Shown here one piece after another: positions 36,094 through 64,000 of a DNA stretch of 64,000 nt. This DNA is from Chitinivibrionales bacterium (lineage in GTDB: Bacteria; Fibrobacterota; Chitinivibrionia; Chitinivibrionales; FEN-1185). The DNA lies in the NCBI GenBank assembly GCA_035516255.1, contig DATJAL010000002.1:62001-126000 (forward strand). Reading direction: 5' to 3'. The position numbers and the translations under genes were made by a program. How positions within the stretch are numbered: position 1 is the stretch's first letter; the number at the start of each line of letters is the position of its first letter. A model generated the notes under the pieces. It saw only the letters and a program-made list of their open reading frames with translations, was not told the origin of the DNA and ran no database searches.

Positions 36094-36220
36094 ATAGGAA
36101 TCTGCGGTATTAATTTTTATGTATCAAGTTGAAAAAGGAGTAATAATTACCAAGTTGTTTTCAAAGGCAGATCTAATAAAGCAGATGTAGAAATAGGAAT
36201 TTATTAACTAGGCGAACTTT

Positions 36221-37304: not shown

Positions 37305-37427
37305 TTATGGGCAGGCGCCTTGATTTTATCGTTCTTGAAAAGCACAACAATATAAAACAATGTCAGCAGACATCCCCTCTTTATGTCGAATTAACCAGAC
37401 ACTAATAATGTCAAATAACAAGCAATC

Positions 37428-38060: not shown

Positions 38061-38135
38061 TAACGAATATCTGTGCAAAAATTTGTTTCTAAGATGATTG
38101 CTGTCATTACTAATTAATAGCTCAAAGGAAAATGA

Positions 38136-41799: not shown

Positions 41800-41809
41800 G
41801 TTTCGAACC

Positions 41810-43543: not shown

Positions 43544-43576
43544 CTGGAAAGTGGTTGGATAACAGAAACTCGTGGC

Positions 43577-43903: not shown

Positions 43904-43972
43904 TTAATTATCAACAGATTACCAGTGGACTCAACTCACTTTTGTGGCCTTTAAGAAGGAAATAGTTCTCCA

Positions 43973-44182
43973 ATGAAACAAACACTGTTGTTCATCTCAA
44001 TGCTCTTTCTATTCACGTTACCCCAATCAAGTTATGGTTATATTGATTTGGGAAGTGGATCCTACTTCATTCAGATCTTCATTGCCATGGCTATTGCGGC
44101 CCTTTATTCCATTAGAAGCCAATTCCATAGATTGTTGCAATTTCTATACAAAAAATTCCAGAAAAAAAACGGCTCGAAATGA
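43973..44182 (+). CDS. Small membrane protein with Y-I-D-x-G-S-G-S motif
   Basis: A 69-residue protein. An N-terminal signal-like hydrophobic segment (residues 4-22) is followed by Y-I-D-L-G-S-G-S-Y and a second hydrophobic helix (about 30-46), then a basic tail. Small proteins with this motif recur next to the methyltransferase-like and sulfatase-like genes found here. Function unknown. Its last codons overlap the next gene by 4 bp, so translation is coupled. AAGGAAATAG upstream supports the start. Confidence 0.72.
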   Translation: MKQTLLFISMLFLFTLPQSSYGYIDLGSGSYFIQIFIAMAIAALYSIRSQFHRLLQFLYKKFQKKNGSK

Positions 44183-45561
44183 TAAAGGCAGCCAACAAGA
44201 CGGATGGCTCCTTCCGAGATCCCTCAGGTTTTGTTTTTGTAAACAAAGGTGCATTATATAGGCAAATAAATGGTTGTTATAAGGAACATTATGACTATCT
44301 TATTCAATCGGGGCTGTATAGACATCTGAGCGAAAATGGGCTGCTTGTTCGACATGATGAAGTCAACGAGACCTTTTCAACAGCCAAAAACGCATATAAA
44401 GTTCTCAAACCCAAAGAGATTGCCTTCATTTCATATCCCTATGAATGGTGTTTCAGTCAGCTTAAGGCTGCGGCGATTACCACCTTGGAAATCCAGAGGA
44501 TTGCCCTCGAGTATGGAATGACTCTCAAGGACAGTAGTGCTTACAATATTCAGTTTGCCGATAGTAAACCGATCTTCATCGACACGCTCTCATTTGAAAT
44601 CTATGTGCCAGGTGAACCGTGGGTTGCATACCGGCAATTCTGCGAACAATTCTTTTGCCCACTTGCACTCATGTCTTTTACAGATCTTCGGTTGAATCAA
44701 TTAGCAAGGGTTTTTATCAATGGAATACCGTTAGATCTTGCCAGCAAACTTCTGCCGAAAAAGACATATTTGACATTTTCGCTATTGTCGCATATTCATC
44801 TTCATGCCAAGAGCCAAAGGTATTTCTCTAATCGAAAAGTTTATCCACATCATTTTACAATGTCCAAGCAGTCTCAGACGGCGCTGCTATCACATTTAAC
44901 TTCATCGGTGAGGGGAATGAAATCGTCAGGTTCTCAGTTTTCGGTTTGGCATTCATACTATAAAGACAACAACTATTCTGAAAAAGCATTTGAGCACAAG
45001 AAGAGTATCTTTAACTCGTTCCTTGATCGAATCTCCCCCAAGACGCTTTTTGATTTCGGGGCAAATACGGGCATTTTCAGCAAGATTTCGAGCGATAGGG
45101 GTATTATCACATATTCATTTGATAATGATGCCCAGTGCATCGAAAAACTATACAACGAGTGCGCATCAGAAAACAAAAGAAACATACTACCTCTCGTAAT
45201 GGATCTTTCCAATCCAAGTGCCGGCATCGGGTGGGCCAACAGAGAACGGTTGAGTTTAGGTGATCGGGGGCCAGTGGATGCTATTTCTGCCTTGGCCTTA
45301 ATTCATCATTTAGTTATTTCAAACAACATCCCCCTGGAAAAAATCGCCGACTTTTTTAGTTCCTTGTGCGCATATTTGATTATTGAATTTGTCCCAAAAT
45401 CGGATTCACAAGTTCAACGGCTATTATCGAATCGAAAAGATGTCTTTGAAGATTATAATGAACAATGCTTTGAAAAATCTTTTTCCATATACTTTAACCA
45501 AATCGACAAAATTCATATTGTAGAATCAGAGAGAAAGATGTATGTCTTCGCAAAACGATAA
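44179..45561 (+). CDS. NoeA-like protein with C-terminal SAM methyltransferase domain
   Basis: A 460-residue protein. The N-terminal 260 residues have K-D-S-S-A-Y-N-I-Q-F and an F-I-D-T-L-S-F-E block followed by W-V-A-Y-R-Q-F-C, typical of proteins related to nodulation protein NoeA. A class I methyltransferase domain follows with F-D-F-G-A-N-T-G-I-F-S near residue 293. It may methylate a surface glycan or lipid-linked sugar. It is overlapped 4 bp by the small gene upstream and 20 bp by the sulfatase-like gene downstream. Confidence 0.8.
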   Translation: MIKAANKTDGSFRDPSGFVFVNKGALYRQINGCYKEHYDYLIQSGLYRHLSENGLLVRHDEVNETFSTAKNAYKVLKPKEIAFISYPYEWCFSQLKAAAITTLEIQRIALEYGMTLKDSSAYNIQFADSKPIFIDTLSFEIYVPGEPWVAYRQFCEQFFCPLALMSFTDLRLNQLARVFINGIPLDLASKLLPKKTYLTFSLLSHIHLHAKSQRYFSNRKVYPHHFTMSKQSQTALLSHLTSSVRGMKSSGSQFSVWHSYYKDNNYSEKAFEHKKSIFNSFLDRISPKTLFDFGANTGIFSKISSDRGIITYSFDNDAQCIEKLYNECASENKRNILPLVMDLSNPSAGIGWANRERLSLGDRGPVDAISALALIHHLVISNNIPLEKIADFFSSLCAYLIIEFVPKSDSQVQRLLSNRKDVFEDYNEQCFEKSFSIYFNQIDKIHIVESERKMYVFAKR

Positions 45562-47113
45562 AATGATTCATAGCGCTTATATTCACTTGATTCTTTTGCC
45601 TCTCGTTCCGATTTTCTTTTATGAGATGCATTATGATCGATTTTCAGGACACTATTCCATTCCGATCATTGGCGTAATAATTACGGTTGTAGCCACATCG
45701 TTTGCACTTTGGTGTTTGCTATCCTTCCTTCAGAAAAATAAAACAATTGTCGCAATAATCACGTCGATCCTCTTGATTTGGTTCTTTTCTTATCAATACC
45801 TCTATAATGCGATTCATCCTTTTTTGGTGTTTCATAATGTGATACTAGGCAGAGATAGATTTCTTCTTCCGCTTTATTTCTGCCTGCTGCTTGTCGCTTT
45901 CATGATTCTTGGGATTCTTTTAAAGAAAGATTCCAACCGCACAATAAAGATAAGCAGCTGGCTCAGTGCGTTGGCGTTGGCGATTTTCCTGGTATTCACC
46001 CTTAGTGAAGTAAAAGTTCATATTAGCGCCCACTCCAATACCCATTTTGATATTCTTCCCACATCTGGAAATGTATCGGTGCCGACGGCATCCTCAGACA
46101 ACATCGTAAAACCGGATGTTTATTACATTATCTGTGACGCCTATCCGTCTAGCAGTGGCCTTATTCGATTCTGCAATTTCGATAATCATGATTTCCTGAC
46201 TGAATTGGAAAAAAGGGGGTTTTATCTTCCGGAAAGTAGTACCTCAAATTATCCTTTCACACAACTATCATTCGCATCATTCCTGAACATGGAATACTTG
46301 GAGAACCCCACCCAAAGAACAATGGGGCCTCAGAAATATTATTCTGTTCTCAACGATCTTATTGCAAATAACAGAATCATGCATGTTTTCGAAGAGAACC
46401 ACTATCACTCTATTAAGATTGGTTCGTGGTGGAAATCCGATCATCCCGGCTTTTCTACCTATTGTGTTCAGTATCTCTCTCTTCTTATGGATATTTTGAA
46501 TAAAAGCGTTCTGAAACCCTATATTGAAAGTTCTGGCGTTAATAATCAGCAACGTGTGCTATTCTTTACGACTCTGGACAAATTGGAGAAAGCAATAAAG
46601 GAAAAACAGTATCCAAAGTTTGTTTTTGCACACATCTATTGCCCTCATCCTCCATTTTGTTTCCAAGCAAATGGTGAAAAACCGCCCTTGAATATGCTGC
46701 TCTCCAAGGATCAGCCGCATCAAGGTTTCTTGTTAAGAGAGCAAGTAAAGTACTTGAACAAGGTGCTTCTTGCTACCATCGATACAATTTTATCAAATTC
46801 AAGGGTAGAACCGATAATCATCTTGCAGGGGGATCACGGGGCTGCCTTTGTATTCAGTACCATAATGGACACAAAGACTATGCCAGACAGCACATTCTTG
46901 AAGTACCAATTTAGGATTCTAAATGCGTATAAGGCCCCCGAACAGATTAAGAGGCAGTTATATAATAAAATAACGCCAGTCAATTCTTTTCGCATAATCG
47001 TAAGTACATTGTTTGGATGCAAATTAGACAGACTTCCGGACAAAAATTATTATGCTTCGCATATTAATCCGTGTAAGCATTGGGAAGTAAATAGTATTGT
47101 GCAGAATCAATAA
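45542..47113 (+). CDS. Membrane-anchored sulfatase/alkaline-phosphatase-superfamily protein
   Basis: A 523-residue protein. About five N-terminal transmembrane helices (to residue 160) are followed by a periplasmic domain with the alkaline-phosphatase fold. D-V-Y-Y-I-I-C-D-A-Y gives the first metal ligand, N-Y-P-F-T-Q-L-S-F-A-S supplies a likely Thr/Ser nucleophile, and Q-G-D-H-G is the late metal site. The layout resembles LtaS/OpgB/EptA-type phosphotransferases. It may add a phospho-substituent to the glycan. It begins inside the NoeA-like gene. Confidence 0.82.
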   Translation: MSSQNDKMIHSAYIHLILLPLVPIFFYEMHYDRFSGHYSIPIIGVIITVVATSFALWCLLSFLQKNKTIVAIITSILLIWFFSYQYLYNAIHPFLVFHNVILGRDRFLLPLYFCLLLVAFMILGILLKKDSNRTIKISSWLSALALAIFLVFTLSEVKVHISAHSNTHFDILPTSGNVSVPTASSDNIVKPDVYYIICDAYPSSSGLIRFCNFDNHDFLTELEKRGFYLPESSTSNYPFTQLSFASFLNMEYLENPTQRTMGPQKYYSVLNDLIANNRIMHVFEENHYHSIKIGSWWKSDHPGFSTYCVQYLSLLMDILNKSVLKPYIESSGVNNQQRVLFFTTLDKLEKAIKEKQYPKFVFAHIYCPHPPFCFQANGEKPPLNMLLSKDQPHQGFLLREQVKYLNKVLLATIDTILSNSRVEPIIILQGDHGAAFVFSTIMDTKTMPDSTFLKYQFRILNAYKAPEQIKRQLYNKITPVNSFRIIVSTLFGCKLDRLPDKNYYASHINPCKHWEVNSIVQNQ

Positions 47114-47455
47114 TTCGCGGCTGCCTGGGCAGTTTGCAGACACAGTACATAGAATAAATTTGGAAGAAAATACATTTTTGTTTTCGGAGCAGGGCAAACA
47201 GAGATGTCTCAAAAGGCTTCTTTCCTGATAGAAAGTTTCTTGCCATAAACAGCACTGAAAGATCCTTGAGATACTCTGGTTCTTTGGCAAACAGGCTTTA
47301 GCCATCTAAAATATTCTTTCATAATTCCTAGATCCCCGCCTACGGCCCTAGTGATTTACTAGTTACTCTGACGATCTTGCGGATATTTTGTATTCATCCG
47401 TTCCTAACCCTAATAATGCGCGATGAAAAGCAATAAAGCGCGCAGCTGTTTAAGA
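47114..47455. other. Spacer without a recognised gene
   Basis: About 340 bp between the sulfatase-like gene and the next GT4. Short open stretches occur on the minus strand in more than one frame, but none shows a domain, a ribosome-binding site or consistent coding character. No terminator is obvious. Confidence 0.4.
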
Positions 47456-48613
47456 ATGAATATCTTTATTGATTTAACTGGATTGAGACGTTCAATAACT
47501 GGTATTGAGAACTACACACTACATTTCGCAAAAACATTGTTGAACATGGATAACAAGAATGAATATCATTTTCTTTTCAGAAGGAATATTCATCCAGATT
47601 TCCAAGACCCTGTCAATCTTTCTTCCCGGTTCACGTTTTCGATTTCCAAGTTTAAATCACAGTTTCTTACAGAACAGCTTTTTATTCCCTGGTTCCTTGC
47701 AAACCATAATTTCGACTTTGCCTTTTTTCCTTGCTTTCCACCAGGATTATTTGTTATACACAAAAAACTTGTTTTCTTGTGTCACGATGCCGTAATGTGG
47801 AAATACCCTAAAACCCTCTCACTCAAGAATAAGTTGTACTTCAGACCTCTAGCGGAAAATGCTCTTTGGAAGGCAAGTTTGGTGTGCACAAATTCAGAAT
47901 CCTCAAGGGAAGACATAGGTCATTATTTCCCTAATGTCCACGAAAGGACAATTAATATAGGAGCTGCAATTAGCGATAAGTACTCTGAATTTGATAGTGC
48001 GATGATTCCGAAGGTCCTCAGAAAGTTTGGCATTAGCAGAAAATACCTTCTTTGTGTTAGTTCGCTGGAACCCAGAAAGAATATTCCCTTTATCGTTACT
48101 ACAACCGCAGAGATTCTCAGAAAACATGATCTGTTGCTGGTTTTGGTAGGAAGAGCTGCTTGGGGCAGAACTGCCATTGATAAGGCTATTCAAAGGGTCA
48201 ACATTTCAGAACGAGTAGTAAGAACCGGATATGTAAGTCTAAACGACTTAAAATGTCTCTATAGTGCTGCGGAAGTTTTCCTGTTTCCATCCTTATATGA
48301 GGGTTTCGGTTTTCCGATTCTTGAAGCATTCGCGTGCGGCTGCCCTGTGATTACGTCCAATGTTTCTTCAATGCCGCACGTTGCAGGGGATGCTGCATTG
48401 TTAATCGACCCCACGAGTGAAGAGGACATGAAGAGAGCGATTCATGCCATCCTGAGACAGGAGCATGTAAGAAGTGCCCTGATTTCAAAAGGGAGTCAGC
48501 AGTTAAGCAAATTCAGTTGGACTCTGAGCTGTGAGAGGTTTGTGCACACATTGGAAAAGCTAAATAACCAACTTGGAGAACACTTGCGGGCTAGTGCAGC
48601 GAAGGAAAAATGA
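47456..48613 (+). CDS. Glycosyltransferase family 4, second copy
   Basis: A 385-residue GT-B enzyme. It starts I-D-L-T-G-L-R-R-S-I-T-G-I-E-N-Y and has S-L-E-P-R-K-N in the donor-binding half, then Y-E-G-F-G-F-P-I-L-E-A, the E-x7-E motif. It is related to the 39.4-kb gene but clearly diverged. The ATG at 47456 puts the N-terminus at the usual beta-strand; another ATG lies 11 codons upstream. It overlaps the WecG/TagA gene by 4 bp. Confidence 0.86.
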   Translation: MNIFIDLTGLRRSITGIENYTLHFAKTLLNMDNKNEYHFLFRRNIHPDFQDPVNLSSRFTFSISKFKSQFLTEQLFIPWFLANHNFDFAFFPCFPPGLFVIHKKLVFLCHDAVMWKYPKTLSLKNKLYFRPLAENALWKASLVCTNSESSREDIGHYFPNVHERTINIGAAISDKYSEFDSAMIPKVLRKFGISRKYLLCVSSLEPRKNIPFIVTTTAEILRKHDLLLVLVGRAAWGRTAIDKAIQRVNISERVVRTGYVSLNDLKCLYSAAEVFLFPSLYEGFGFPILEAFACGCPVITSNVSSMPHVAGDAALLIDPTSEEDMKRAIHAILRQEHVRSALISKGSQQLSKFSWTLSCERFVHTLEKLNNQLGEHLRASAAKEK

Positions 48614-49401
48614 GCAACATCATCGATGGAGTCCTGGGCGTTTCCTATTTTGCTGGCTCATTTTCTGATGCGATGCAAACCATCCTTTCCCTTGCATCTG
48701 AAACGGGTGAATCCAAGTATTCGGTATTTACACCGAACGTGCACCATGTGTATCTCATTCAAAAGAATGAGAAATTGAGACAAGCATATCAATCTGGTTC
48801 GATCTGCCTTCTTGATGGCATGCCCTTGGTTTGGGCACTCAGGATTTTCGCTAGAAAAAACGTCCAAAAGATTTCCGGGTCCGATATGTTTGTTTGCCTT
48901 TTTAAAGAAGCAATCAAAAGGGGCATGAAAGTATGCCTTCTTGGCGGTACACCGGGAGTGGCCGAGAAAGCAGCAAGTATTCTTCTTAAGGCAAAAGAGG
49001 ATAAGGGGCTTATTTTGACTTATTCTCCGCCATTTGGTTTTGAAAAATCTGTTCTGGAAGACCAAAAGGTAATAAACGAAATTAACCGTTTTTCCCCAAA
49101 CATTCTATTCGTTGCTTTCGGTGCCCCAAAGCAAGAGATATGGATCTATGAGCACCTAAGCAAATTAAGTGTAAAAATGGCGATGGGAGTTGGTGGCTCC
49201 TTTGACTTTGTTGCCGGAGTACAAAAACGGGCTCCGATTTTCATGCAAAATATTGGATTAGAGTGGTTGTTCCGATTAATATGTGATCCCAGACGTTTGT
49301 GGAAACGGTATCTTATCACTAATACATTCTTTATCCGGCTTCTAATAACAGAAGCAATCAAGAGAATGATTTTCAGGAAAGCGACGAACATCCAATGCTA
49401 G
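48610..49401 (+). CDS. WecG/TagA/CpsF-family glycosyltransferase (GT26)
   Basis: A 263-residue protein with the GT26 sequence order: T-P-N-V-H-H-V-Y, D-G-M-P-L-V-W, G-S-D-M-F, L-L-G-G-T-P-G-V, A-F-G-A-P-K-Q-E and E-W-L-F-R-L. These enzymes transfer ManNAcA (WecG) or ManNAc (TagA) to a lipid-linked acceptor. Given the WbpE/B/D genes, a diamino-uronic acid donor is plausible. It lies 3' to a GT4 gene and is followed by the interrupted GH5. Confidence 0.9.
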   Translation: MSNIIDGVLGVSYFAGSFSDAMQTILSLASETGESKYSVFTPNVHHVYLIQKNEKLRQAYQSGSICLLDGMPLVWALRIFARKNVQKISGSDMFVCLFKEAIKRGMKVCLLGGTPGVAEKAASILLKAKEDKGLILTYSPPFGFEKSVLEDQKVINEINRFSPNILFVAFGAPKQEIWIYEHLSKLSVKMAMGVGGSFDFVAGVQKRAPIFMQNIGLEWLFRLICDPRRLWKRYLITNTFFIRLLITEAIKRMIFRKATNIQC

Positions 49402-50396
49402 CAATATCCCGAAATACGTTGTTTGCCCTTCTTCTTTGTGCAGATTTTCTCTGGGCATTGGATAATTCTTCGCAACAACATAGAAGTTACTTGCCGTGGC
49501 TCAGAGTAGACAACAACTACATAGTTGATTCTACCGGTAAACCAATCCGTCTTATCGGTCATGGGATTTCACCAATAAATCCTGGTGAATGGGGGAACAA
49601 AACAATTCAACAGATTGTAACTGAATATAAAGCCAAGGGGTTTAATTCAATGCGTGTTTCATTCTATCGCAATAATAATTATAACCAGACTCGCGATCAA
49701 ATCAAAGAGCTTGGACCAGAGTCTTTTATTGATAAATGGATATAGCCCCAGGTTTCAGAGATAATAAGAAATGGAATGTATGCCATAATTGATTGGCACG
49801 GATATGAAAATCAACATGCCTTTCTATATTCTGAATTAATACCCTTGTGGACCTCAATAGCGCAAAGATACAAGAATGAACCTGGAGTCGCTATTTACGA
49901 ATTGTGGAACGAACCGAAGTGCGTCGGCAAAGCGGGTGCCGATTCGCTCAGAACATGGTATAAAAATGCCGTAGATGCTATCCGGAAGATAGACACTCAA
50001 CACATTATTATGGTTTCCGACTGGAATGCCGGATGGGGGTGGGCAATTGAATCAATGTGGGCACCACACGGCACGCTGATCGACATCGATCCTTTGAGCA
50101 AGAAACAAATCGTTTATAGCAAACACATGTCGGCTATAAATGAAAGAAAAGGCGATGGCGTAGATGCGGACAATTTCTCTCGCAAGTACAATGTTCCCGT
50201 CTTTTGGGGCGAAGTTGAAACGGATCCGAATGTTAACGTGATCCCAATATCCGACCAGCATATTCTATTCAAACAAATGATTGACAGACTTCTAAAGAAC
50301 AACCTTTGCCAGGGCGTCGAGTTTTGGCGGATTTATGATGATGCATTTGAAGATGATTGGAAACCTCTATTGGATGCCAATTGTCAACAAAGGTAA
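49395..50396 (+). pseudogene. Secreted GH5 family glycoside hydrolase interrupted by an in-frame TAG
   Basis: The frame is continuous for 333 codons except for one TAG at 49743-49745 (codon 117). Before it are a signal peptide and the N-terminal barrel strands with L-I-G-H-G-I-S. After it come I-D-W-H-G, the acid/base Glu173 in W-N-E-P, and a late W-G-E-V likely holding the nucleophile. No frame change is needed. A single base change (for example CAG to TAG) explains it, as would a sequencing error. TAG is a normal stop elsewhere here (pyrF, the GT26 gene), so recoding is unlikely. Intact, it would be an endoglucanase or similar beta-glycanase. Confidence 0.8.
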
Positions 50397-50533
50397 TCAC
50401 AGCTGCCATCTTATACAATGAAATCTCAGTACAAAGAAACCTTAGTTGATTTGGGCAGCACATCCATGCATATCGCTCAATTATGGAAAAGCCAACAAAG
50501 TCTAAAACGCAGAACCTCTCTGGAAAATTAATT

Positions 50534-51487
50534 ATGCACCCCTCCTCAAAAATCTTCATCGCCGGCCACCGCGGTCTTGTTGGATCAGCAATAACCCGCA
50601 AGCTGCGGGAAAAAGGCTTTACCAACCTTCTTGAAAAGACGCACTCGGAGCTCGATTTGACGAACCAACATGCAGTGGAAATTTTTTTCGCGGATGAGAA
50701 GCCCGAATATGTCTTTCTCGCCGCTGCAAAGGTGGGCGGTATTCATGCCAACAGCACCTATCCTGCCGAGTTCATTTTCAGCAACATGCAGGTGCAGATG
50801 AATATCATCAACGCGGCGTGGAAGTTCAAGACCAAGAAACTGATGTTTCTGGGATCGTCATGCATTTATCCCAAGTATTGCCCGCAGCCCATGAAGGAGG
50901 AGCACCTGCTCTCCGGCTATCTGGAGCCGACCAATGAGCCTTACGCGCTTGCAAAGATCGCCGGCATCATCATGTGCAGGAGCTATAACAAACAGTACGG
51001 GACCGATTTTATTTCCGTGATGCCCACCAACCTCTACGGTCCCAACGACAATTATCACCCGCTCAATTCGCATGTGCTGCCCGCTCTCATTCGAAGGTTT
51101 CACGAGGCGAAAGTGAACAATGCGCCAAACGTGATGATCTGGGGAACCGGCAATCCGACGCGGGAATTTCTGTATTCGGACGACCTTGCCGACGCCTGTA
51201 TTTTCCTCATGGAGAAATACACGGGAAATGAGATCATCAACATCGGGTCGGGTCAGGAAGTCACCATCCGCGACCTGGCGAATGTCGTCAGGAGCGTCGT
51301 GGGGTTCAAAGGCACAGTGGATTTTGATCCGACCAAGCCGGACGGCACGCCGCGGAAGCTGCTTGACTGTTCAAAACTCCACGGTCTTGGTTGGCGGCAT
51401 AAGACCCAATTAAATGAGGGTGTAAGGCTGGCGTATGAAGACTTCTTGAAGATGCTTGCGGATGCGGGCAGGAAAGACAGGTTTTGA
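50534..51487 (+). CDS. fcl: GDP-L-fucose synthase
   Basis: A 317-residue SDR epimerase/reductase. It has G-H-R-G-L-V-G-S-A near the N-terminus, an A-A-A-K-V-G-G-I segment, a G-S-S-C-I-Y-P-K segment and the catalytic Y-A-L-A-K, all specific to GDP-fucose synthase. It converts GDP-4-keto-6-deoxymannose to GDP-L-fucose; GMD, which supplies the substrate, is not in the window. I chose the ATG at 50534. Its GC-rich codon use differs sharply from the AT-rich genes just upstream. It ends the plus-strand locus. Confidence 0.92.
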
Positions 51488-52257: not shown

Positions 52258-52602
52258 TCAGGCTGCATTTTTCTTGGCCTTGAAAATGGAGATTTCCTGG
52301 GCAAGTTTTTTTACGTCCTCCCTGAGCGACGAAAGCCTTATCGTAAGATAGAGAAGCATGCAGGTGAAAATGAAGATGACGCAGAGGAGTATCACGGTGA
52401 TATAATGCAGATGGATGAGCGACGAGATTTTTACAAGCAAATTCGGAAACAAGCCGAAAAAAAGAAAGAGAAAAGCAAGTGGCAGCCACAACAGGCTGTA
52501 TTTCTCTTTGATAGAGTTGTTGCCGATGAAATACAGAATAAAGGCGGTGATAAGGATGCTGGTGGCGCCGAAGATGATCCGTGCCGTTATGGTGATTTCC
52601 AT
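52258..52602 (-). CDS. DUF2304 membrane protein
   Basis: A 114-residue protein with three hydrophobic helices and a C-terminal coiled coil, the DUF2304 layout. This family is commonly found beside DPM1-type glycosyltransferases and is thought to be their membrane partner. Its start overlaps the upstream glycosyltransferase gene by 16 bp, which fits that pairing. Confidence 0.83.
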   Translation of the reverse strand: MEITITARIIFGATSILITAFILYFIGNNSIKEKYSLLWLPLAFLFLFFGLFPNLLVKISSLIHLHYITVILLCVIFIFTCMLLYLTIRLSSLREDVKKLAQEISIFKAKKNAA

Positions 52603-53309
52603 GACTGCCCCTTGTACGGGTTATCCTTGAAAAAAGAAATAAAAAACGCCAAAGAAACCGCAATCATATACACCAATGAATAAAACCAGCTGATTGAAGA
52701 CCTGCCTTGCTTTCTCGGGTTCATTCGCACCTCTTCGCATTCGATTCTATACCCGGCCCGGATCAACAGCATCGTGCTTTCGATTTCAGGATAATCGAGC
52801 GGATAATATCTGGCAAATTTTTCTGCGATTGATTTACCGAAGCAGATAAACCCGGAAGTAGGGTCAAGAACATTGGTGCGGGTGAAAAAGCGGAATAGTA
52901 ATCTGAAATACCACCCCCCGATTTTTCGCGCCATATCGCTCGACGTTTTAAAGTCCGCGCCGCATCGTGTGCCCACCACGAGGACATTGTCTTTGACTTT
53001 AGACAATAATTTATCAATAAAAAATCCGTTATGTTGGCCGTCACCGTCCATTCTCACCAATGTATCATATCCTTGCTTCAGGGCATAAAGTACCCCCAGT
53101 TGTACCGCGCCGCCGATGCCTAGGGATATTGAAGAGGATAGTACTGTCACCCTTTCGAACATTTCAGCAGTTTGCACGGTATTATCAGCAGAATGGTCGT
53201 CAACGACAATAATATCGCATTGCGGGGCATTGGATCGTACATCTTCAATGACGCGGCCGATGTTTTGCGCCTCGTTTTTTGCCGGGATAATTACTGCAAT
53301 TTTCGACAT
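52587..53309 (-). CDS. Polyprenyl-phosphate glycosyltransferase, DPM1-like (GT2)
   Basis: A 240-residue GT2 enzyme. It has I-P-A-K-N-E-A-Q-N-I, V-V-D-D-H-S-A-D-N-T and the metal-binding M-D-G-D-G-Q-H, all typical of dolichol/undecaprenyl-phosphate sugar transferases. It ends with a hydrophobic helix and a short tail. It would make a lipid-linked monosaccharide used on the outer face. The ATG at 53309 is preferred; a longer frame reaches 53390 without support. Confidence 0.86.
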   Translation of the reverse strand: MSKIAVIIPAKNEAQNIGRVIEDVRSNAPQCDIIVVDDHSADNTVQTAEMFERVTVLSSSISLGIGGAVQLGVLYALKQGYDTLVRMDGDGQHNGFFIDKLLSKVKDNVLVVGTRCGADFKTSSDMARKIGGWYFRLLFRFFTRTNVLDPTSGFICFGKSIAEKFARYYPLDYPEIESTMLLIRAGYRIECEEVRMNPRKQGRSSISWFYSLVYMIAVSLAFFISFFKDNPYKGQSWKSP

Positions 53310-53393
53310 AATTATGACCGCCCAATAAATTGCAATATTTAGTATATCATGGCGCAGTATCAATGAAAAGTTGAAATTAAGGATACACAAAAT

Positions 53394-56293: not shown

Positions 56294-56308
56294 TTATCTT
56301 GAAGATAA
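56287..56308 (-). terminator. Weak terminator at the end of the radical SAM operon
   Basis: On the minus strand TTATC / GATAA with a 5-base loop is followed by six Ts, and it overlaps the stop codon of the last radical SAM gene. The stem is AT-only, so efficiency is uncertain. Confidence 0.4.
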
Positions 56309-57652
56309 ATAATTTTTCAAATGGTGCAATATTGTTTGCGGCTTATGCAGCAGCATAAACCGGTGCCACATTCTAAGCCCCTTCCGGTAGCTTGATTCAA
56401 TTTCATGTTTTGAAAACTCCGGATAAGAAAGCGGTGTTGTTCCGGCGCCGTTGAATTCCTCATAAGAATTGTTTACTAACCATCCGTTTTTCTGCGCTAT
56501 TTTGTAAAATACAGTGCCGGGATAAGGCGTTGCCGTGCTGAATTGGACTGTATCTGGGTTCAAGGACAGCACAAACTTGACTGTTTCCATGACGGTCTTT
56601 TTCGTGTCGCCGGGAAGGCCGATCATGATTGTCGCATGACGCTTGATCCGGTGGCGCCGCAGTGTCGCAAACGTTTCTTTAATTTGCTTAAGTGTTATTC
56701 CCTTTGGAATCGTGTCAAGAATACTCTGTATGCCACTTTCGACACCGAGTTTTATCGCCCGGCAACCCGCTTTTGCCATCCATGTGGCGCATTCCTCGCT
56801 CACGGGAACATTACCCATGCAGCTCCAGGATATGCCCCGAACGCGTTCGCATATTTCCCTGCAAAGCGCAATAAGGTGCGCCGGCTGCACGGTGAGCGTG
56901 TCGTCATCAAATAATATCTCGCTTGGATGATATCGTTTGACAAGATATAACATTTCATCAACGACCTGTGCCACGTTTCTTGTTCTATATTTTGTTTTTC
57001 CGATGTAGGGGGCGAGCGAACAGAACGAACATGCATGGGTGCAGCCCTTTGATGAAAGCAGGGTGATATTGAATCCACGCGAAAACGGGTCATGATATTG
57101 TTTGAGGGGCAGTTCATCACGTAGCGGGTAGGGCAGCAAATCAAGGTTGTCGAGAATGGGGGCATAAACAGGAGCGGGATTTGCTACGGTTCCAACGTAG
57201 GGAGGAAGGGCCGATTTACCTTCAAGCGATTCGACAAAATCGGCAATAAGATATTCATATTCACCACAAAACACGTAATCGAACCCTGCATCAAGGTGTT
57301 GCCGGGGCAGGGCGGTTGCATGAAAACCTGCCGCACAGAGCGGGGTCCCCTTAAGCTGTTTTACCGTATCCATATCGGCGGAGAAGCTCGGCGCGCTTGT
57401 TTCCATGATAATAAGGCCAGGAGAGAATGATGAAATGAATTGAAGCAGCGCTGTGATGTCCCATTGCAAAACGGGGCAATCTTTGATTGCAACCGTATGG
57501 CCTGCCTGCTTTAGTCTCGCACCGGCATAGGCGAGAGCGAACGGAAATGGAAAATAAAGGCCGCGTTTTGTCAGCAGCTTCCGCCTGTGGGGCCACCGTG
57601 AACCGGCGCGGACGAATTCATTGCCGGGAGGATTAAGAAGAAGGATATTCAT
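56294..57652 (-). CDS. B12-binding-domain radical SAM protein (last gene of operon)
   Basis: A 452-residue protein. The N-terminal 150 residues form a cobalamin-binding-type Rossmann domain (N-P-P-G near the start, then C-G-E-Y-E). The radical SAM cluster motif is C204-x3-C208-x2-C211. V-E-S-G and a G-L-P-G-D-T motif follow in the barrel. Family members methylate unactivated carbons or rearrange lipids, tetrapyrroles and natural products. It lies 7 bp after the UPF0104-type gene and is transcribed with it. The substrate is not predictable. Confidence 0.88.
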   Translation of the reverse strand: MNILLLNPPGNEFVRAGSRWPHRRKLLTKRGLYFPFPFALAYAGARLKQAGHTVAIKDCPVLQWDITALLQFISSFSPGLIIMETSAPSFSADMDTVKQLKGTPLCAAGFHATALPRQHLDAGFDYVFCGEYEYLIADFVESLEGKSALPPYVGTVANPAPVYAPILDNLDLLPYPLRDELPLKQYHDPFSRGFNITLLSSKGCTHACSFCSLAPYIGKTKYRTRNVAQVVDEMLYLVKRYHPSEILFDDDTLTVQPAHLIALCREICERVRGISWSCMGNVPVSEECATWMAKAGCRAIKLGVESGIQSILDTIPKGITLKQIKETFATLRRHRIKRHATIMIGLPGDTKKTVMETVKFVLSLNPDTVQFSTATPYPGTVFYKIAQKNGWLVNNSYEEFNGAGTTPLSYPEFSKHEIESSYRKGLRMWHRFMLLHKPQTILHHLKNYLSSR

Positions 57653-57659
57653 AATATCA

Positions 57660-58646
57660 TCACTGGATTTTCATTTTCGATGGCTTGACAATAAAATGCA
57701 TGATACCAACCATGACGAGGTAGCATCCGAACAGCGTTAACAGAGTAAGGGAACGTGATGAAACCGCGAACGCAGCAAAAGCCTCCTTGGTAACGCCGTA
57801 ATGGTGAAGAAGGTAGAGAAGAGTCACTTCCGTAATGCCGAGACCCAACGGCACGAATGAAAGAACCATGATAACTCCCGAAAGGGTTATCATCTCGAAA
57901 AGGAGAAATATGGAAATGTGCGCTGATGATTCCTCAAGAAGAATCCTCGTGAGCACGACAAGAAAAATGTACGAAATTATCGACAGGGCCATTATCACGA
58001 AATATCGTTTTCCAAGTTTTTTTACCTCATAGCTGACTTTTTCCGCAAACGATAAAAGTGTGCAGAATGCTTTCCGAAGAGAAAAAAAAGTGCCATGACA
58101 CTCATGCTCCAGGCCGTCCAAGATCCTCTGAAGGACGGCGCGCCAGAAAGCGTTGTTTCCAAGAAGGAAAAAAGCGCCTGAAATTCCTGTAAATACCGAA
58201 CAGGAAAAAAGTATTCCAGTCAAAGATAAATTTTGTAGAACAAGAAGTCCGATCACACCAAACAGTAATTGCATGTAAAACTCAACCATCTTGTCGACGA
58301 TAATTGCAAGGCCGATTTCCTTCACTCGATATTCTTTTAGAAGAAACGGCGCAAAATCGCCGAGCCGGGCAGGAGTAAGGCTGCCTCCGGTTTTTGACAG
58401 AAAATAAACATACGCCACCTCTTTGAGCGGTATCGAAGCGCCGATGATGAGTTTATACCGAAAAATGCCAACGCCGAATGAAAAAATCATGAGGAGAACG
58501 CATTCAATCAGCGGAAGCGCTTTCATGGAACCGAGAACCGTCCAGACAATTTTCCAATTGACTATTCTGACAAAAAGAACGGTAAAGATAACAAGCAGGA
58601 CAAATCCGACAATGGTTTTTATTGAAATTTTCTTTATGCCGGGCAT
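57660..58646 (-). CDS. UPF0104/LPG-synthase-TM-type integral membrane protein
   Basis: A 328-residue polytopic protein with about eight helices. It has T-G-G-S-L-T-P-A-R-L-G-D near residue 84 and a late P-L-G-L-G-I-T-E motif, the two conserved blocks of the YbhN/AglD/MprF-N family. Members flip or transfer lipid-linked groups. The ATG at 58646 starts 4 bp after the methyltransferase stop; a frame extending upstream overlaps that gene and is rejected. It lies within an operon with glycosyl- and methyltransferases, so lipid modification is plausible. Confidence 0.83.
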   Translation of the reverse strand: MPGIKKISIKTIVGFVLLVIFTVLFVRIVNWKIVWTVLGSMKALPLIECVLLMIFSFGVGIFRYKLIIGASIPLKEVAYVYFLSKTGGSLTPARLGDFAPFLLKEYRVKEIGLAIIVDKMVEFYMQLLFGVIGLLVLQNLSLTGILFSCSVFTGISGAFFLLGNNAFWRAVLQRILDGLEHECHGTFFSLRKAFCTLLSFAEKVSYEVKKLGKRYFVIMALSIISYIFLVVLTRILLEESSAHISIFLLFEMITLSGVIMVLSFVPLGLGITEVTLLYLLHHYGVTKEAFAAFAVSSRSLTLLTLFGCYLVMVGIMHFIVKPSKMKIQ

Positions 58647-58650
58647 GCGG

Positions 58651-59346
58651 TTATTTCCTGCCAATATAAAGAAGCTGCGCGCCGGAAGCATGTTGGAGCA
58701 GCGGTTGCAGAAATCGTGGGAACAGAAAGCTGACGGTGAACAGATCGTGGTTGTATGACCGCGCGACAAGGGTTGAAAAGCCGAAGCAGGCAAACAGAAA
58801 TTCAAGGGAACGTTTTGTGAAGGGCCGTTTATGGGTGATGTCGTTGAAAAAGGCGAACTTGTACTTTTCGATGTCCGGCACGGTGACAAAGACAATGCCG
58901 TTTTTTTTCAAAATGCGGTATATTTCTGAAGCGATTTCCTCCGGATTGGAAAGATGCTCGAGCGTTGAGCAGATAAGGACGATATCACAGCTTGCATCAG
59001 GCAATGCAACGGGGCCCTTTTCCACGTCGGCGCAGATGAATTCGATGCTGTTTTCTTTGCATTTCTCCTTGAAGAAATCGTCAAAGTCGATGGCGATCCG
59101 CCGATTCACCTCGGGGCCGTTGTAACTGAGCATCCATCCGTCATAGGCGCCGATGTCTGCAACCGACAGCCCTTTGGCATTGGGGAAAAAGGTGTTAACG
59201 ATATACCACAAATTAAACGCATGAAAATTCTTCTGCCCGATTTTCTCAGCCTTTTTTTGCAGGCGGCTCATGAAAAAACCGGCGACAGGGTTTGGTTTTG
59301 GCAGGTGAAATTTCCTGTAATTTTCTGCATAGCACATTTTAATCAT
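58651..59346 (-). CDS. Class I SAM-dependent methyltransferase
   Basis: A 231-residue protein. The SAM-binding loop D-I-G-A-Y-D-G is followed by I-D-F-D and the late C-S-T-L-E-H-L-S, as in Methyltransf_11/12 proteins. The ATG at 59346 overlaps the DUF362 stop by 8 bp; ATG 59337 is an alternative. It is one of two methyltransferases in this operon. The substrate is unknown. Confidence 0.85.
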   Translation of the reverse strand: MIKMCYAENYRKFHLPKPNPVAGFFMSRLQKKAEKIGQKNFHAFNLWYIVNTFFPNAKGLSVADIGAYDGWMLSYNGPEVNRRIAIDFDDFFKEKCKENSIEFICADVEKGPVALPDASCDIVLICSTLEHLSNPEEIASEIYRILKKNGIVFVTVPDIEKYKFAFFNDITHKRPFTKRSLEFLFACFGFSTLVARSYNHDLFTVSFLFPRFLQPLLQHASGAQLLYIGRK

Positions 59347-60535
59347 AGACACCCTTTTGTTTGGAATGGAATGGTTTTGCAACAGCCAACAGGACCTTCG
59401 CAACCCGGAACAGCACCGATTTTCGAAGGACAATCGCTCGTGACGGGCACAGTTCATGGCAGCAATAGCACCTGATGCAGGCATCCCGGTCGAGCATCGT
59501 CGCCTTTTTCTTCTTTGTAAAACCAATGACGCGCACCGGGCATGAATTCACGCAGGTGCCGCAGCCGGTGCATTTTTTTGGAATGACTTCAGGAAAAAGA
59601 ACGAGGGAATTTTTCATCAAACGTTTAAGAACGGGATTGGTGAAGCTGTTCGGATTTTCACTGCGGGCCGGTTTGCGGAACCGGAAGGGAGAAAAAGCGC
59701 CAATGGTCAGTATCTCGATATCGGCAAGCGAAGCGGGCCCGAACCCCCGCTTTTTTGCGCAGGCCAGCACCGGAACATCGTTATCGTCGATTCCCATGCA
59801 TGTGCAGGCGACCCTGTCAACGGCAACAGGATGTTCACCCACCAGGATAATACCGCAGGAGAGGGGCGACCCGGAATTGGGGCCGTCGCCTTCCATCGCC
59901 ACGATCGCATCAACAATGGAAAGCGCGGGCGGAACAAAGTCTATGATGTCAAGAATCGCGTTGAAAAAATGGGCGGGATCGGGCATCCGCAGGTGGAAAT
60001 TCGCCTTGTGTACTCCCGGAACTATTCCGAACATGTTTTTACACGCGCCGGTGATGTGGCCATAACAATGCGTTTTCAGCTTTGGAACATTGATAATTGC
60101 ATCAACGGAAAAAATGTCCTTTAAAAAGAGACATGTTTTTATCAGGGTGCCGTTGGGCAAGTGTTTTTCGACGGCGTCGTCGTTGTATTTGATTTCGCAG
60201 CTGTGCGTGCGCGCAGCGGTTTCGGCGCCGGTAACGGAAAACACGGCGCGTTTTATCGACGGATTGATCCGCGAGCCGCCGGGGCTCTCAATGATAACGG
60301 GGCGGCCCCCCATTTTTTTTGCGAGGACTATTGCCGATTCGATCACGGCCGGATGCGTTGTCGCCGCCTGTTCGGGGGGACAAGGAAGAAACAAATTTGG
60401 TTTGAGCGCGACCGATTTGTTAGTGAGTGCGAGTTTTTTCGTAAGTTCCATGGTTTCAACGGCCGAATACAGAACGTCGGCTAGGGGGTCGTTATAAGTG
60501 AGGCCGGAAATGACTGCAACGGCGTGCTTTGCCAT
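59339..60535 (-). CDS. DUF362 protein with C-terminal two-cluster ferredoxin domain
   Basis: A 398-residue protein. The DUF362 domain spans about residues 1-290 (A-L-K-P-N-L-F, then P-K-L-K-T-H). Two [4Fe-4S] motifs follow, C-x2-C-x2-C-x3-C-P and C-x2-C-x2-C-x3-C-P. DUF362 proteins are suspected redox or modification enzymes. In this operon it could deliver electrons to the radical SAM enzymes, which need a reductant. It starts at the last base of the upstream radical SAM gene. Confidence 0.86.
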   Translation of the reverse strand: MAKHAVAVISGLTYNDPLADVLYSAVETMELTKKLALTNKSVALKPNLFLPCPPEQAATTHPAVIESAIVLAKKMGGRPVIIESPGGSRINPSIKRAVFSVTGAETAARTHSCEIKYNDDAVEKHLPNGTLIKTCLFLKDIFSVDAIINVPKLKTHCYGHITGACKNMFGIVPGVHKANFHLRMPDPAHFFNAILDIIDFVPPALSIVDAIVAMEGDGPNSGSPLSCGIILVGEHPVAVDRVACTCMGIDDNDVPVLACAKKRGFGPASLADIEILTIGAFSPFRFRKPARSENPNSFTNPVLKRLMKNSLVLFPEVIPKKCTGCGTCVNSCPVRVIGFTKKKKATMLDRDACIRCYCCHELCPSRAIVLRKSVLFRVAKVLLAVAKPFHSKQKGVYD

Positions 60536-61905
60536 CAGCGTTTTCCGTGTGATGGTGAAACCAAGTTTTTCACCTTAAAAAATACCAGGCGGACGAACCG
60601 ATGTACATAGTTTACCACTTCCCGCGGCTGCTTGATCCCCTGCCATGCCAAAAGAAGAAGCGAATAATTGCGAAATACATATTTAATCTGCAACCGCTCG
60701 AATATTTCCCGCTGACGTTCCGGAGCGATGGCGGTGTTGCAGGGCTGTATGAAAGGATTTCCCGTTGTAAATTGACCCCAGTCAACGCGTCCGTCAGGGC
60801 CGGCCGCACCTTTGCACTGTTGCCACAGTTTCGTACTAGGATACGGCGTCAAGAAATGGATGGAGACGAAGTCAATCTTGTTTTCATCAATGAATTTTTC
60901 CGTTAACGCAATGTCCTCCTCGGTTTCGGACGGGGTGCCGACAATGAAACAGCCGCGGACCCTAATGCCGCCGTCGTTGCAGAGGCGGATGGTTCTGCGG
61001 CAAACGTCCACGCGGGTCCCCTTTTCAAGAACGTCGAGGATTCTCTGGCTGCCGGACTCAAACCCCAGGGCGACCTGGTCGCATCCTGCTTTTTTAAGCA
61101 GGGTAATTATGTTTTCGTCAAGCGTACCGGCCTGTGCCTGGCATTCCCATTTGAGCGTATCAAGGCCCTTTTCAACCAGCAGGGAGCAGATATCCCGCAC
61201 CCGGTTTTTATTGCCCGTGAAACATTCGTCGGTGATGGCAAGGCCCTTGATTCCATATTTCTTTACAAGATACTCTACTTCGGCGACAACGCGCGATGCG
61301 CTCTGGTACCGCACCGGAATTTTCCGCAAGGAATTATGGCAGAACACGCAGGAAAAGGGGCACCCGCGGCTGGTGAGAAGGGAGGCGGTTTTTCTCCGGC
61401 TGCCGGAAATCTGGTCTTTCTGACGCAGATAAAACGCCATGTCGATGAGATGGCGCGACGGGGGAGGCAGTTCATCAAGGTTTTCGAGCATGGCGCCGTG
61501 AATGATTTTTTTTTCTCCGTGTTTGACGGAATTGTTTGTAACAATGTCAAGCAGCGCCTTTTCGCCTTCGCCGGTCACCACTGCGTCACAGTGGCCGAGG
61601 GATTCTTCCGGCCGGGCCGAAGGGTGCACGCCGCCCATGATAACGGTGGCATCAAGTTCTCTTTTTACAAAGTCGGCAATCTGGTACGCCCGTGGAACGA
61701 ACATGGTCATTGCGGTGATGCCGACGAATTTCGGGCGGTGCGCAAGCAGCTCGGTTTCGGCATGCGCCCCGCTTATTTCATCAATGATGCAGACCTCATA
61801 CCCGTGCTTTTCGAGATAGGCCGCAAGAAAGGCAAGGCCGAGCGGCTCCTTTTTAAGGGGCGTATTCCCCGGTGCGGGGCCAGGATTGACAAGCGCAATA
61901 TCCAC
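60535..61905 (-). CDS. B12-binding-domain radical SAM protein (second)
   Basis: A 456-residue protein. The N-terminal cobalamin-binding-type domain starts with V-N-P-G-P and includes G-G-V-H-P and the following T-G-E-G-E. The cluster motif is C182-x3-C186-x2-C189. A G-F-E-S-G-S motif and the late G-T-P-S-E-T block match the same subfamily as the 56.3-kb protein, but the two are clearly different. It is 3 bp after a methyltransferase gene. Confidence 0.88.
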   Translation of the reverse strand: MDIALVNPGPAPGNTPLKKEPLGLAFLAAYLEKHGYEVCIIDEISGAHAETELLAHRPKFVGITAMTMFVPRAYQIADFVKRELDATVIMGGVHPSARPEESLGHCDAVVTGEGEKALLDIVTNNSVKHGEKKIIHGAMLENLDELPPPSRHLIDMAFYLRQKDQISGSRRKTASLLTSRGCPFSCVFCHNSLRKIPVRYQSASRVVAEVEYLVKKYGIKGLAITDECFTGNKNRVRDICSLLVEKGLDTLKWECQAQAGTLDENIITLLKKAGCDQVALGFESGSQRILDVLEKGTRVDVCRRTIRLCNDGGIRVRGCFIVGTPSETEEDIALTEKFIDENKIDFVSIHFLTPYPSTKLWQQCKGAAGPDGRVDWGQFTTGNPFIQPCNTAIAPERQREIFERLQIKYVFRNYSLLLLAWQGIKQPREVVNYVHRFVRLVFFKVKNLVSPSHGKR

Positions 61906-61908
61906 GGA

Positions 61909-62616
61909 TCATTCCCTCGGAACGGGGCGGTACAGAGAACCGTTCTTTTTTGCAATCAATAAAAAAGATTCCGCTTTCGCATGATACGCCAATTCAAGAA
62001 GAAACACGAACGGCGCCTTCAAGAGACGGATGACGAACGGCGTCTTGCACCCCATTTGCGCGCCGGTAAGCGTAATCGGTTTAAATTCAAAAGCGAAACC
62101 GTATTTTTGCGCCAACGCGGCGACGTCGTTTTTATAAAGGGCGCGCTCATCCTTGCATGGGACCACGCGGATCGGCGACCGGGGATGGTGGGTGAGGTAC
62201 GTTTTCGGGTTCTGCGCGTCGGGCTCGACGGCCAGCAGCGTTCCCGCCGGGACAAGCACCCGGCCGATTTCGCTGAACACCGCATCGAGTTTTTCAGCGA
62301 CATGGTGCAGGGTGTTGATGGACAATACAAGGTCGAAAAAGCCGTCCGGATAGTCAAAACGTTCCGTGACGTCGCCGACTTTTGCCTCCTTGAAGTAACG
62401 CTGAGCCACGGCGACGCTGTTCGGCGAAATGTCGATGCCGTACCAGTCGTCCCTTTTAAGGCATTCGTTGACTTGCCCGGTGCCGCAGCCGATGTTGAGC
62501 ACACGAACATCATGGGGGACTATTTCATCTATTTTTTTTATAGAGGCAACCGTATATAGATAGGAATGGTGGCCGCGGGCCATTTCGTCGAAGATGTCTT
62601 TTTGTTCTGTTTTCAC
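61909..62616 (-). CDS. Class I SAM-dependent methyltransferase (second)
   Basis: A 235-residue protein. N-I-G-C-G-T-G-Q-V is the SAM loop, followed by G-I-D-I-S and N-T-L-H-H-V. The C-terminus has hydrophobic stretches that may touch the membrane. It overlaps the GT2 gene by 4 bp. The Methyltransf_11 family includes ubiquinone, lipid and sugar methylases, so the substrate is open. Confidence 0.86.
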   Translation of the reverse strand: MKTEQKDIFDEMARGHHSYLYTVASIKKIDEIVPHDVRVLNIGCGTGQVNECLKRDDWYGIDISPNSVAVAQRYFKEAKVGDVTERFDYPDGFFDLVLSINTLHHVAEKLDAVFSEIGRVLVPAGTLLAVEPDAQNPKTYLTHHPRSPIRVVPCKDERALYKNDVAALAQKYGFAFEFKPITLTGAQMGCKTPFVIRLLKAPFVFLLELAYHAKAESFLLIAKKNGSLYRPVPRE

Positions 62617-63554
62617 GGAAGGCGGTTTGTCTCAGAGTTTTTAAAAAGGCCTTTCACGATCCCCCAGCTGTACGGCCAGATGATGACCCAGCGCGCGAGC
62701 CAGCGGGTCAGGCCCTTCCATGCGGACTTGAATGCGATCATCCAATGCACCAAGGTGGCCGCTAATATCACACCCGCACAAATTGCTCCCGTATAAAAAT
62801 TCACCGGCAGGGAAACCACACTCACCACCATGAGCAAGGCAAGGACAGGAATGCACAGCGTATAATACCACATGAAATTCCTGATGCCCGCGGTCTTCAT
62901 CATGATGACGATATCAAATCCCATCATGACCGTCTGGCGCAGGAACCCGAGCAATTCCGCTTTGTAATGATGCCGAGCGATAACGCCGTCATCAAACCAT
63001 ATCTTGTACCCGGCCTCCTGAAGTTTCATGGAAATATATACGTCTTCTGCCGCCATGAGATTGACCTGGAGCCAGCCCCCGATCTTTTTAAGCGCGTCGG
63101 TCCTGAAATAAGAATTCCCGCCGATGACGCCGTCGGTATAGCCGGTTTTTTTTGTTTCAACTACAAACCACATATGATGCAGCCAGCTTGAGAAGTTGTG
63201 CCGGCCTATCATGGGATGAGCGCCGGTGCCCGCCGCCGCCTCGGGTTTTTCCGTGAAAATATTCTTGATGCGCCGCACCCAGTTTTCATCAAGCACGCAG
63301 TCGGTATCGGTAAAAGCGAGGATATCAGTGTTGCAACGATGGAGCGCGGTGTTGCGCGCGTGAAAGAGTTTTATTCCCTCGTTGGGAAGGACTTTAACGG
63401 CGAAATTATGTAAGAATGGCGGCAATGGCTTTGACACGTCATCGAGGATCAAAAAAACGGAATCCGGCTTTTCGGTTTGGCGGGCTATGCTGTCAAAACA
63501 TTCCTGTTGCAGGCTACTGGCGTTTTTAGCAGACAATGCAAGCGTGAGGGTCAT
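62613..63554 (-). CDS. Membrane-associated GT2 glycosyltransferase
   Basis: A 313-residue protein. The GT-A domain spans about residues 1-215, with A-R-N-T-A, the D-T-D metal motif in F-T-D-T-D-C, and a later E-D-V-Y motif. Two or more C-terminal helices follow at about 235-285. It resembles GT2s that glycosylate lipids. It starts 4 bp after the SPASM-like gene and is coupled to the methyltransferase gene. Confidence 0.86.
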   Translation of the reverse strand: MTLTLALSAKNASSLQQECFDSIARQTEKPDSVFLILDDVSKPLPPFLHNFAVKVLPNEGIKLFHARNTALHRCNTDILAFTDTDCVLDENWVRRIKNIFTEKPEAAAGTGAHPMIGRHNFSSWLHHMWFVVETKKTGYTDGVIGGNSYFRTDALKKIGGWLQVNLMAAEDVYISMKLQEAGYKIWFDDGVIARHHYKAELLGFLRQTVMMGFDIVIMMKTAGIRNFMWYYTLCIPVLALLMVVSVVSLPVNFYTGAICAGVILAATLVHWMIAFKSAWKGLTRWLARWVIIWPYSWGIVKGLFKNSETNRLP

Positions 63555-63558
63555 GGGA

Positions 63559-64000
63559 TTAAATAAAATCCAGTTGTGCGATGTCCTTGATCATCATCTG
63601 GTGCATGAGTTCGTTGTACACGCCGAACCTGCAGTCGAGGACGTTGCATTCAGAAACTTTTATGTTTTTTATGGCGTCCCAGTGCCGCTTTGAGTACCAT
63701 ATTTTTGAAAGCGGCTGCTTGAACAGATTGCCGAAGCAGTGCGTTTTTTTGCGGTGGCGGTAGTAGCAGCAGATAAAAACATCGCCAAGCGCGTCAATCA
63801 TGATCTGGACCGGCGAAAGCCAGCACTTCATGGTAATGTTTGCACGGCGCACGCTGCCTACCACCGACAGCCGCGGGTACTTGTCGGCAAGCCTCGTGAT
63901 GCGCGCCTGGATTTTTTCTTCACTGCGGCCGAGGCCGAGCGATTTGAAGATCCGCACGCTCTTGAATTGCAGAGAATCCACGCAGAGCCTGTTGGCGAGC
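63559..64000 (-). CDS. Radical SAM/SPASM-like protein, 5' end beyond the window
   Basis: The frame is open to the right edge, so the N-terminal part, including the CxxxCxxC motif if present, is missing. The visible 146 residues end in a SPASM-type Cys-rich tail: I-D-A-L-G-D-V-F-I-C-C-Y, a later G-N-L-F, then S-E-C-N-V-L-D-C-R-F. SPASM domains hold auxiliary [4Fe-4S] clusters. The first gene of the operon may lie further right. The radical SAM assignment is inferred from the tail only. Confidence 0.7.
   Translation of the reverse strand, partial: LANRLCVDSLQFKSVRIFKSLGLGRSEEKIQARITRLADKYPRLSVVGSVRRANITMKCWLSPVQIMIDALGDVFICCYYRHRKKTHCFGNLFKQPLSKIWYSKRHWDAIKNIKVSECNVLDCRFGVYNELMHQMMIKDIAQLDFI

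Follow-up and report, generated by a model that had tools for sequence, protein, structure and literature searches.

Which kind of molecule is modified by an operon that combines three radical S-adenosylmethionine (SAM) proteins with two methyltransferases, a ferredoxin-type protein, a glycosyltransferase and a membrane protein? The question is raised by a locus in a Chitinivibrionales bacterium, the genome of which is available as 4.28 Mb in 61 contigs (96.6% complete). The window analyzed here is a stretch of 64,000 nucleotides (G000:C2:62001-126000, contig DATJAL010000002.1), and the operon reaches its right end. A preliminary description, made from the letters of the window, pointed to a modified lipid or lipid-linked product. 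The explanation that we favor, with moderate confidence, is that the eight genes form a transcription unit whose products use radical chemistry to modify the sugar moiety of a lipid-linked surface glycan. A pathway for such radical sugar remodeling was not found described in open-access full texts, to which all literature searches were directed.

Composition of the operon

The operon occupies positions 56294-64602 on the minus strand, and all eight open reading frames (ORFs) are present (Table 1). The compact arrangement reported in the preliminary description, in which adjacent genes overlap by 1-8 bp or are no more than 7 bp apart, was confirmed. In the order of transcription, rSAM_C is separated by 4 bp from the gene for a family 2 glycosyltransferase (GT2), which overlaps the methyltransferase gene MT2 by 4 bp; MT2 is followed after 3 bp by rSAM_B, which overlaps the DUF362 gene by 1 bp. 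The latter overlaps the second methyltransferase gene, MT1, by 8 bp, and gaps of 4 and 7 bp precede UPF0104 and rSAM_A, respectively. The start codons of UPF0104 and MT1 were corrected to 58646 and 59346; the program-made ORFs extend further. Extending the sequence rightwards, as had been proposed, identified the first gene as rSAM_C, which starts 602 bp outside the window (contig C2:126602). Upstream of it, a divergent gap of 258 bp separates the operon from a glycosyltransferase pair of the Alg14/Alg13 type, which is encoded on the other strand. The gap contains a promoter-like TAGACA-18-TATAAT (11/12, a consensus match only) that ends some 150 nt ahead of the start codon of rSAM_C. The 424 bp downstream of rSAM_A hold no convincing gene, only short low-complexity ORFs, and in an Rfam scan of the operon locus neither a cobalamin riboswitch nor any other family reached threshold.

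Table 1. Coordinates of the operon genes, of neighboring features in the window and of the orthologous trio in contig L238
Feature	Position	Strand	Size or identity	Basis
rSAM_C, radical SAM/SPASM protein, operon gene 1	63559..64000, on to 64602	−	347 aa	Pfam
GT2 family glycosyltransferase, two C-terminal hydrophobic segments	62613..63554	−	313 aa	Pfam
MT2, class I SAM-dependent methyltransferase, GTG start	61909..62616	−	235 aa	Pfam
rSAM_B, radical SAM protein with clear B12-binding N-domain, GTG start	60535..61905	−	456 aa	Pfam, model
DUF362 protein with C-terminal two-cluster ferredoxin domain	59339..60535	−	398 aa	Pfam
MT1, class I SAM-dependent methyltransferase, corrected start	58651..59346	−	231 aa	Pfam
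UPF0104/LPG_synthase_TM membrane protein, about 6 hydrophobic segments, corrected start	57660..58646	−	328 aa	Pfam
rSAM_A, radical SAM protein of the HpnJ/AprD4 neighborhood	56294..57652	−	452 aa	Pfam, family models, structure match
Surface-polysaccharide cluster: DegT (two), GFO_IDH, acetyltransferases, Wzz, Wzx-type flippase, GT4 (two), GT2, WecG/TagA, GDP-sugar epimerase	22447..51487	+		
Separate pair: polyprenyl-phosphate-type GT2 and DUF2304 small membrane protein	52258..53390	−		
rSAM_C orthologue in L238	10996-12060		45%	mutual best hit
rSAM_A orthologue in L238	12113-13597		44%	mutual best hit
rSAM_B orthologue in L238	13692-14999		43%	mutual best hit

The three radical SAM proteins match the Pfam Radical_SAM profile with 66.7, 79.8 (rSAM_B) and 65.7 bits, and the CxxxCxxC motif is intact in each. 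Two B12-type N-domains had been described, of which the one in rSAM_B is supported by 65.6 bits for the B12-binding profile, whereas the one in rSAM_A scores 30.8 bits, just short of the cut-off of 32.1. When a cobalamin-dependent radical SAM enzyme is recognized by this domain together with a CxxxCxxC domain, rSAM_B is clearly predicted to be one and rSAM_A is a borderline case. The SPASM-like tail was borne out in rSAM_C (34.5 bits, cut-off 21.5), and its auxiliary-cluster cysteines C260, C278, C279, C319 and C324 are invariant in three relatives. Pfam also agrees with the remaining domain names: the DUF362 protein scores 173.7 bits, matches Fer4 as well and has 8/8 ferredoxin cysteines; UPF0104 scores 72.6 bits for LPG_synthase_TM, GT2 46.4 bits, and the two methyltransferases 55.8 and 67.0 bits for Methyltransf_11. 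Among other structures, MT2 is weakly similar to the solved D-glucose O-methyltransferase 6uv6, while for GT2 and UPF0104 no solved structure was matched by sequence.

Conservation of the radical SAM trio

A search with rSAM_C in 387 relatives of a Zixibacteria genome led to contig L238 of genome G599. Here a fourth radical SAM gene (9482-10987) and orthologues of rSAM_C, rSAM_A and rSAM_B follow each other on one strand. With the 2081 proteins of the fetched loci as the comparison set, each of the three is a mutual best hit that scores well ahead of the next best protein (398 vs 253 bits for rSAM_A, 387 vs 204 for rSAM_B and 335 vs 258 for rSAM_C). In phylogenetic analysis rSAM_C and its L238 partner form one clade with 99/98 support. 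Because three mutual best hits stand consecutively in a distant genome, the three radical SAM genes are a conserved unit. The L238 locus differs from the operon in its gene order and its extra radical SAM gene, the closest match of which (45%) is the radical SAM member of a GT4-rSAM-GT2-GT2 run in L081, a locus of the operon's own phylum. The DUF362, methyltransferase and UPF0104 genes were not found on the L238 contig, and of the remaining five operon genes only GT2 occurs there, at a distance. The DUF362-ferredoxin, GT2, methyltransferase and UPF0104 genes may thus be local additions to the trio.

The full set of eight genes was found nowhere else in 1155 genomes and part of the genome_contigs collection. 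Conservation of the set, as distinct from that of single genes, therefore holds for the core kept in L238 but not for the whole operon. In 168 genomes of the organism's own phylum no other match to rSAM_C was found at E 1e-30, and rSAM_A had only two relatives at E 1e-58.

The DUF362-ferredoxin was proposed in the preliminary description as a natural electron source. It is a likely electron donor, but the association is not general. The family is widespread and its members mostly stand alone; among the matches listed in genome_contigs, radical SAM relatives were near the gene in 1/80 loci of other genomes. In this single locus, L131 of a Nitrospirae genome, a run of genes encodes DUF362-ferredoxin, GT2 and four radical SAM proteins, three of them of the B12 type. 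It differs from the operon in that identities are only 27-34%, and neither its fourth radical SAM protein nor its GT2 shows a recognizable relationship to the operon counterpart (rSAM_C and GT2, respectively). No second case was found in 150 relatives of the Nitrospirae genome. The pairing of DUF362-ferredoxin and B12-type radical SAM genes does recur, since in one family of the own phylum six genomes (L070-L075) have a vertically inherited DUF362-ferredoxin gene with one or two genes for B12-type radical SAM proteins nearby. In these loci the DUF362-ferredoxin gene is usually followed by a gene for a protein of about 210 aa, and type VI secretion-like genes adjoin in some, as seen by eye. The operon protein groups apart from the DUF362-ferredoxin clade of its phylum (96/94 support, long branch), which suggests that the gene was acquired from elsewhere.

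Glycan genes around the operon and its relatives

On the left, the operon is preceded by a surface-polysaccharide cluster, from which it is separated by a DTW-domain gene, the GT2-DUF2304 pair and a GH3 enzyme. The GT2-DUF2304 combination is also seen in a plasmid cluster of Lawsonia. A dnaA and a dnaN-like gene at 19610-22360 stand ahead of the polysaccharide cluster, which probably places both cluster and operon near the replication origin. Inside the cluster, a 206-aa ORF (49776-50396) matches a GH5 cellulase over the middle of the profile only (76-196 of 272) and is perhaps a truncated gene.

Relatives of the trio are found repeatedly in sugar and glycan clusters of chromosomes, plasmids and phages, so that the glycan setting is common to the operon and its relatives; neighbors were labeled with small profiles, or by eye where Pfam was not run. 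The clade of rSAM_A (Shimodaira-Hasegawa approximate likelihood ratio test, SH-aLRT, 99) also takes in a phylum-wide B12-type radical SAM protein whose gene has GT2 as its partner, together with the plasmid protein of Lawsonia and the third B12-type protein of L131. The two best relatives of rSAM_A in the own phylum (L080, L081) adjoin epimerase-like or glycosyltransferase genes. In 46 phylum loci GT2 is adjacent to 12/54 B12-type radical SAM genes, compared with 5.5 expected from within-locus shuffling (p=0.0015); this signal is weaker than its p-value because 6/12 adjacencies represent one orthologous, inherited pair.

The plasmid search gave distant relatives only, with informative contexts. 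Plasmid 1 of Lawsonia intracellularis (NC_008012.1, L177) carries two radical SAM genes, one of them B12-type and from the clade of rSAM_A, five methyltransferase genes with class I members among them, GT2, DUF2304, GalE, SIS, HAD-IIIA and a GHMP kinase. Unlike the operon, this cluster has heptose-type sugar genes and lacks DUF362 and UPF0104, and its second radical SAM protein does not match rSAM_C at E 1e-4. The small plasmid is given over largely to this glycan cluster, on which no paper was found in the texts searched.

Relatives of rSAM_C occur with pseudaminate, SIS, PfkB and transketolase genes and, by eye, with SpsF-like, transketolase, DegT and epimerase genes or with epimerases and a polyprenyl-type GT2. 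In viral contigs, single-protein scans with rSAM_B and rSAM_C gave no match; alignment-based searches then found phage relatives. Those of rSAM_C are accompanied by UDP-galactopyranose mutase, PfkB/cytidylyltransferase, GT9, DegT and GT4 genes, and in four phage loci a B12-type gene related to rSAM_B is found a few kilobases away. Large phage contigs (L254-L256, L261) have glycan clusters in which SPASM and B12 radical SAM genes are close to each other, in some with UDP-galactopyranose mutase in between. In other viral contigs (L245-L251, e.g. L247:6283-8972) an rSAM_C relative (about 31%) stands directly 3′ of a conserved gene of 484-493 aa, in a block that also has primase-like and DNA polymerase III alpha-like genes. 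An apparent epimerase-radical SAM fusion (758-aa ORF, L262:7680-9956) adjoins another rSAM_C relative.

Possible functions of the operon

None of the radical SAM proteins was assigned to an NCBIfam equivalog, in agreement with the earlier statement that the set could not be matched to a described pathway. The best model for rSAM_A is HpnJ (TIGR03471), with 222.3 bits over the whole length and a cut-off of 577.6. For BchE (TIGR02026, cut-off 481) rSAM_B scores 136.7 bits, its best model, and rSAM_A 106.6 bits; the best model for rSAM_C is a tungsten-oxidoreductase maturase (88 bits vs a cut-off of 380). The AprD4 model (NF033070, cut-off 500) gives only 96.0 and 92.4 bits. AlphaFold2 models were built from ten-sequence alignments (predicted local distance difference test, pLDDT, 78.5 for rSAM_A and 74.2 for rSAM_B, with the last 90 residues of rSAM_B unreliable). 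Among PDB entries, AprD4 solved with its substrate paromamine matches the rSAM_A model best (E 3.9e-24, template modeling (TM) score 0.74), while the rSAM_B model is about equally close to TsrM and AprD4 (TM 0.58-0.67). AprD4, a radical SAM 1,2-diol dehydratase acting on an aminosugar, is also the sequence-closest solved structure for both proteins, at 22-24% identity; in contrast to its own setting, the operon has neither aminoglycoside genes nor an AprD3-type reductase. HpnJ, the radical SAM enzyme of bacteriohopanetetrol cyclitol ether, has a glycosyltransferase partner and uses hopanoid-bound glucosamine as its substrate (PMC12583986). Thus both characterized neighbors of rSAM_A act on an aminosugar.

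In view of the above, the following scheme for surface-glycan tailoring can be considered. The first step would be the transfer of a sugar by GT2 onto an acceptor carried on polyprenyl or a lipid; this sugar is probably an aminosugar. rSAM_A, rSAM_B and rSAM_C would then alter it at unactivated carbons by deoxygenation, C-methylation, oxidation or ring rearrangement, with electrons fed by the DUF362-ferredoxin. The two class I methyltransferases could attach O- or N-methyl groups, and UPF0104 might move or handle the lipid-linked product. What the scheme takes from direct observation is the gene content, the geometry of the operon, the three-gene core kept in a distant genome and the glycan setting. 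The substrate, the product, the order of steps, the electron donor and all of the UPF0104 role are what we infer for this scheme, and its assignment to a glycan would follow from gene neighborhoods and distant homology. Of the product originally suggested, a lipid-linked one is plausible, but the emphasis shifts from the membrane lipid as such to the sugar or glycan part because a Wzx/Wzz cluster adjoins the operon, relatives occur in nucleotide-sugar, heptose and glycosyltransferase clusters, and AprD4 is the closest structure.

Several points weigh against this explanation. An argument from gene neighborhoods is one of guilt by association, and genes for glycosyltransferases are common. In L238 no glycosyltransferase stands directly beside the trio, and the accessory genes of the operon could be unrelated passengers, as the eight-gene set was not found elsewhere. 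AprD4 (22-23% by structure) and HpnJ (222 bits, cut-off 577) are only distant relatives, and for radical SAM proteins substrate class is poorly predicted at such distance. Finally, in four Zixibacteria-related genomes (L228, L239, L240, L242) an rSAM_C relative (28-38%) stands beside csrA- and fliW-like flagellar genes, as judged by eye.

Among the other explanations, modification of a membrane lipid itself, in its acyl or isoprenoid chain, is unlikely, although more probable than the rest. The radical SAM proteins would act on the hydrocarbon, in the way suggested for ladderanes and for ring formation in archaea, and GT2, the methyltransferases and UPF0104 would build the head group. The LPG_synthase_TM type of UPF0104 fits this, as do amphipathic C-terminal regions, matches of rSAM_A and rSAM_B to the lipid family rSAM_ladder_B12 (106-114 bits, cut-off 360) and the position of the partly similar L131 set ahead of bamA-, lpxD-, fabZ- and lpxA-like genes (by eye). 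However, no fatty-acid, isoprenoid or glycerolipid gene occurs in or next to the operon, the relatives are mostly among sugar genes, and rSAM_A gives a higher score with HpnJ and has AprD4 as its nearest structural match. Less probable than this is a small secreted sugar-derived natural product of aminocyclitol or nucleoside type. AprD4 belongs to natural-product biosynthesis, as do DesII and cytosylglucuronate decarboxylase in the case of rSAM_C, and the sporadic occurrence resembles that of natural-product clusters; on the other hand, the operon has no resistance, transporter, regulator or scaffold-building gene, the hydrophobic segments of GT2 and UPF0104 indicate the membrane, and the setting is a polysaccharide locus.

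The flagellar neighbors mentioned above, the rSAM_C relative in a pseudaminate cluster and a TMEM260-type O-mannosyltransferase in L131 would be consistent with glycosylation or modification of a protein such as flagellin. We consider this improbable, since no flagellar gene is near the operon and the flagellar-side relatives form a separate branch. Maturation of a ribosomal peptide is very improbable: many SPASM proteins are peptide maturases, but an adjacent precursor peptide was not found in the operon, which offers no intergenic room, or in the flanking 424 bp. Moreover, peptidase and exporter genes are missing and every NCBIfam maturase score is far short of its cut-off. The hopanoid cyclitol-ether pathway (HpnI/HpnK/HpnJ) is suggested by HpnJ being the best family model for rSAM_A and by the presence of GT2. 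It can be practically discounted, with an HpnJ score of 222 vs 577.6 bits and no HpnI orthologue or HpnK-type deacetylase in the operon. The pathway was rejected because the host has no squalene-hopene cyclase (no PF13243 match in the genome) unless the gene lies in the missing part.

Returning to surface-glycan tailoring, a more far-reaching version is possible but doubtful: three radical SAM enzymes acting in series on one lipid-linked sugar could give a carbon skeleton undescribed in bacterial surface glycans, by a mobile module that is shared between phyla and has parts distantly related to phage sugar-cluster genes. Radical SAM genes recur in the examined glycan clusters of anaerobe chromosomes, plasmids and phages, and no paper assigning a reaction to such genes was found in the same full texts. 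The conserved three-gene core provides a defined, expressible unit for asking about radical chemistry on surface sugars. If the proposed function is true, it would add an extra class of sugar modifications, perhaps used by phages and hosts alike.

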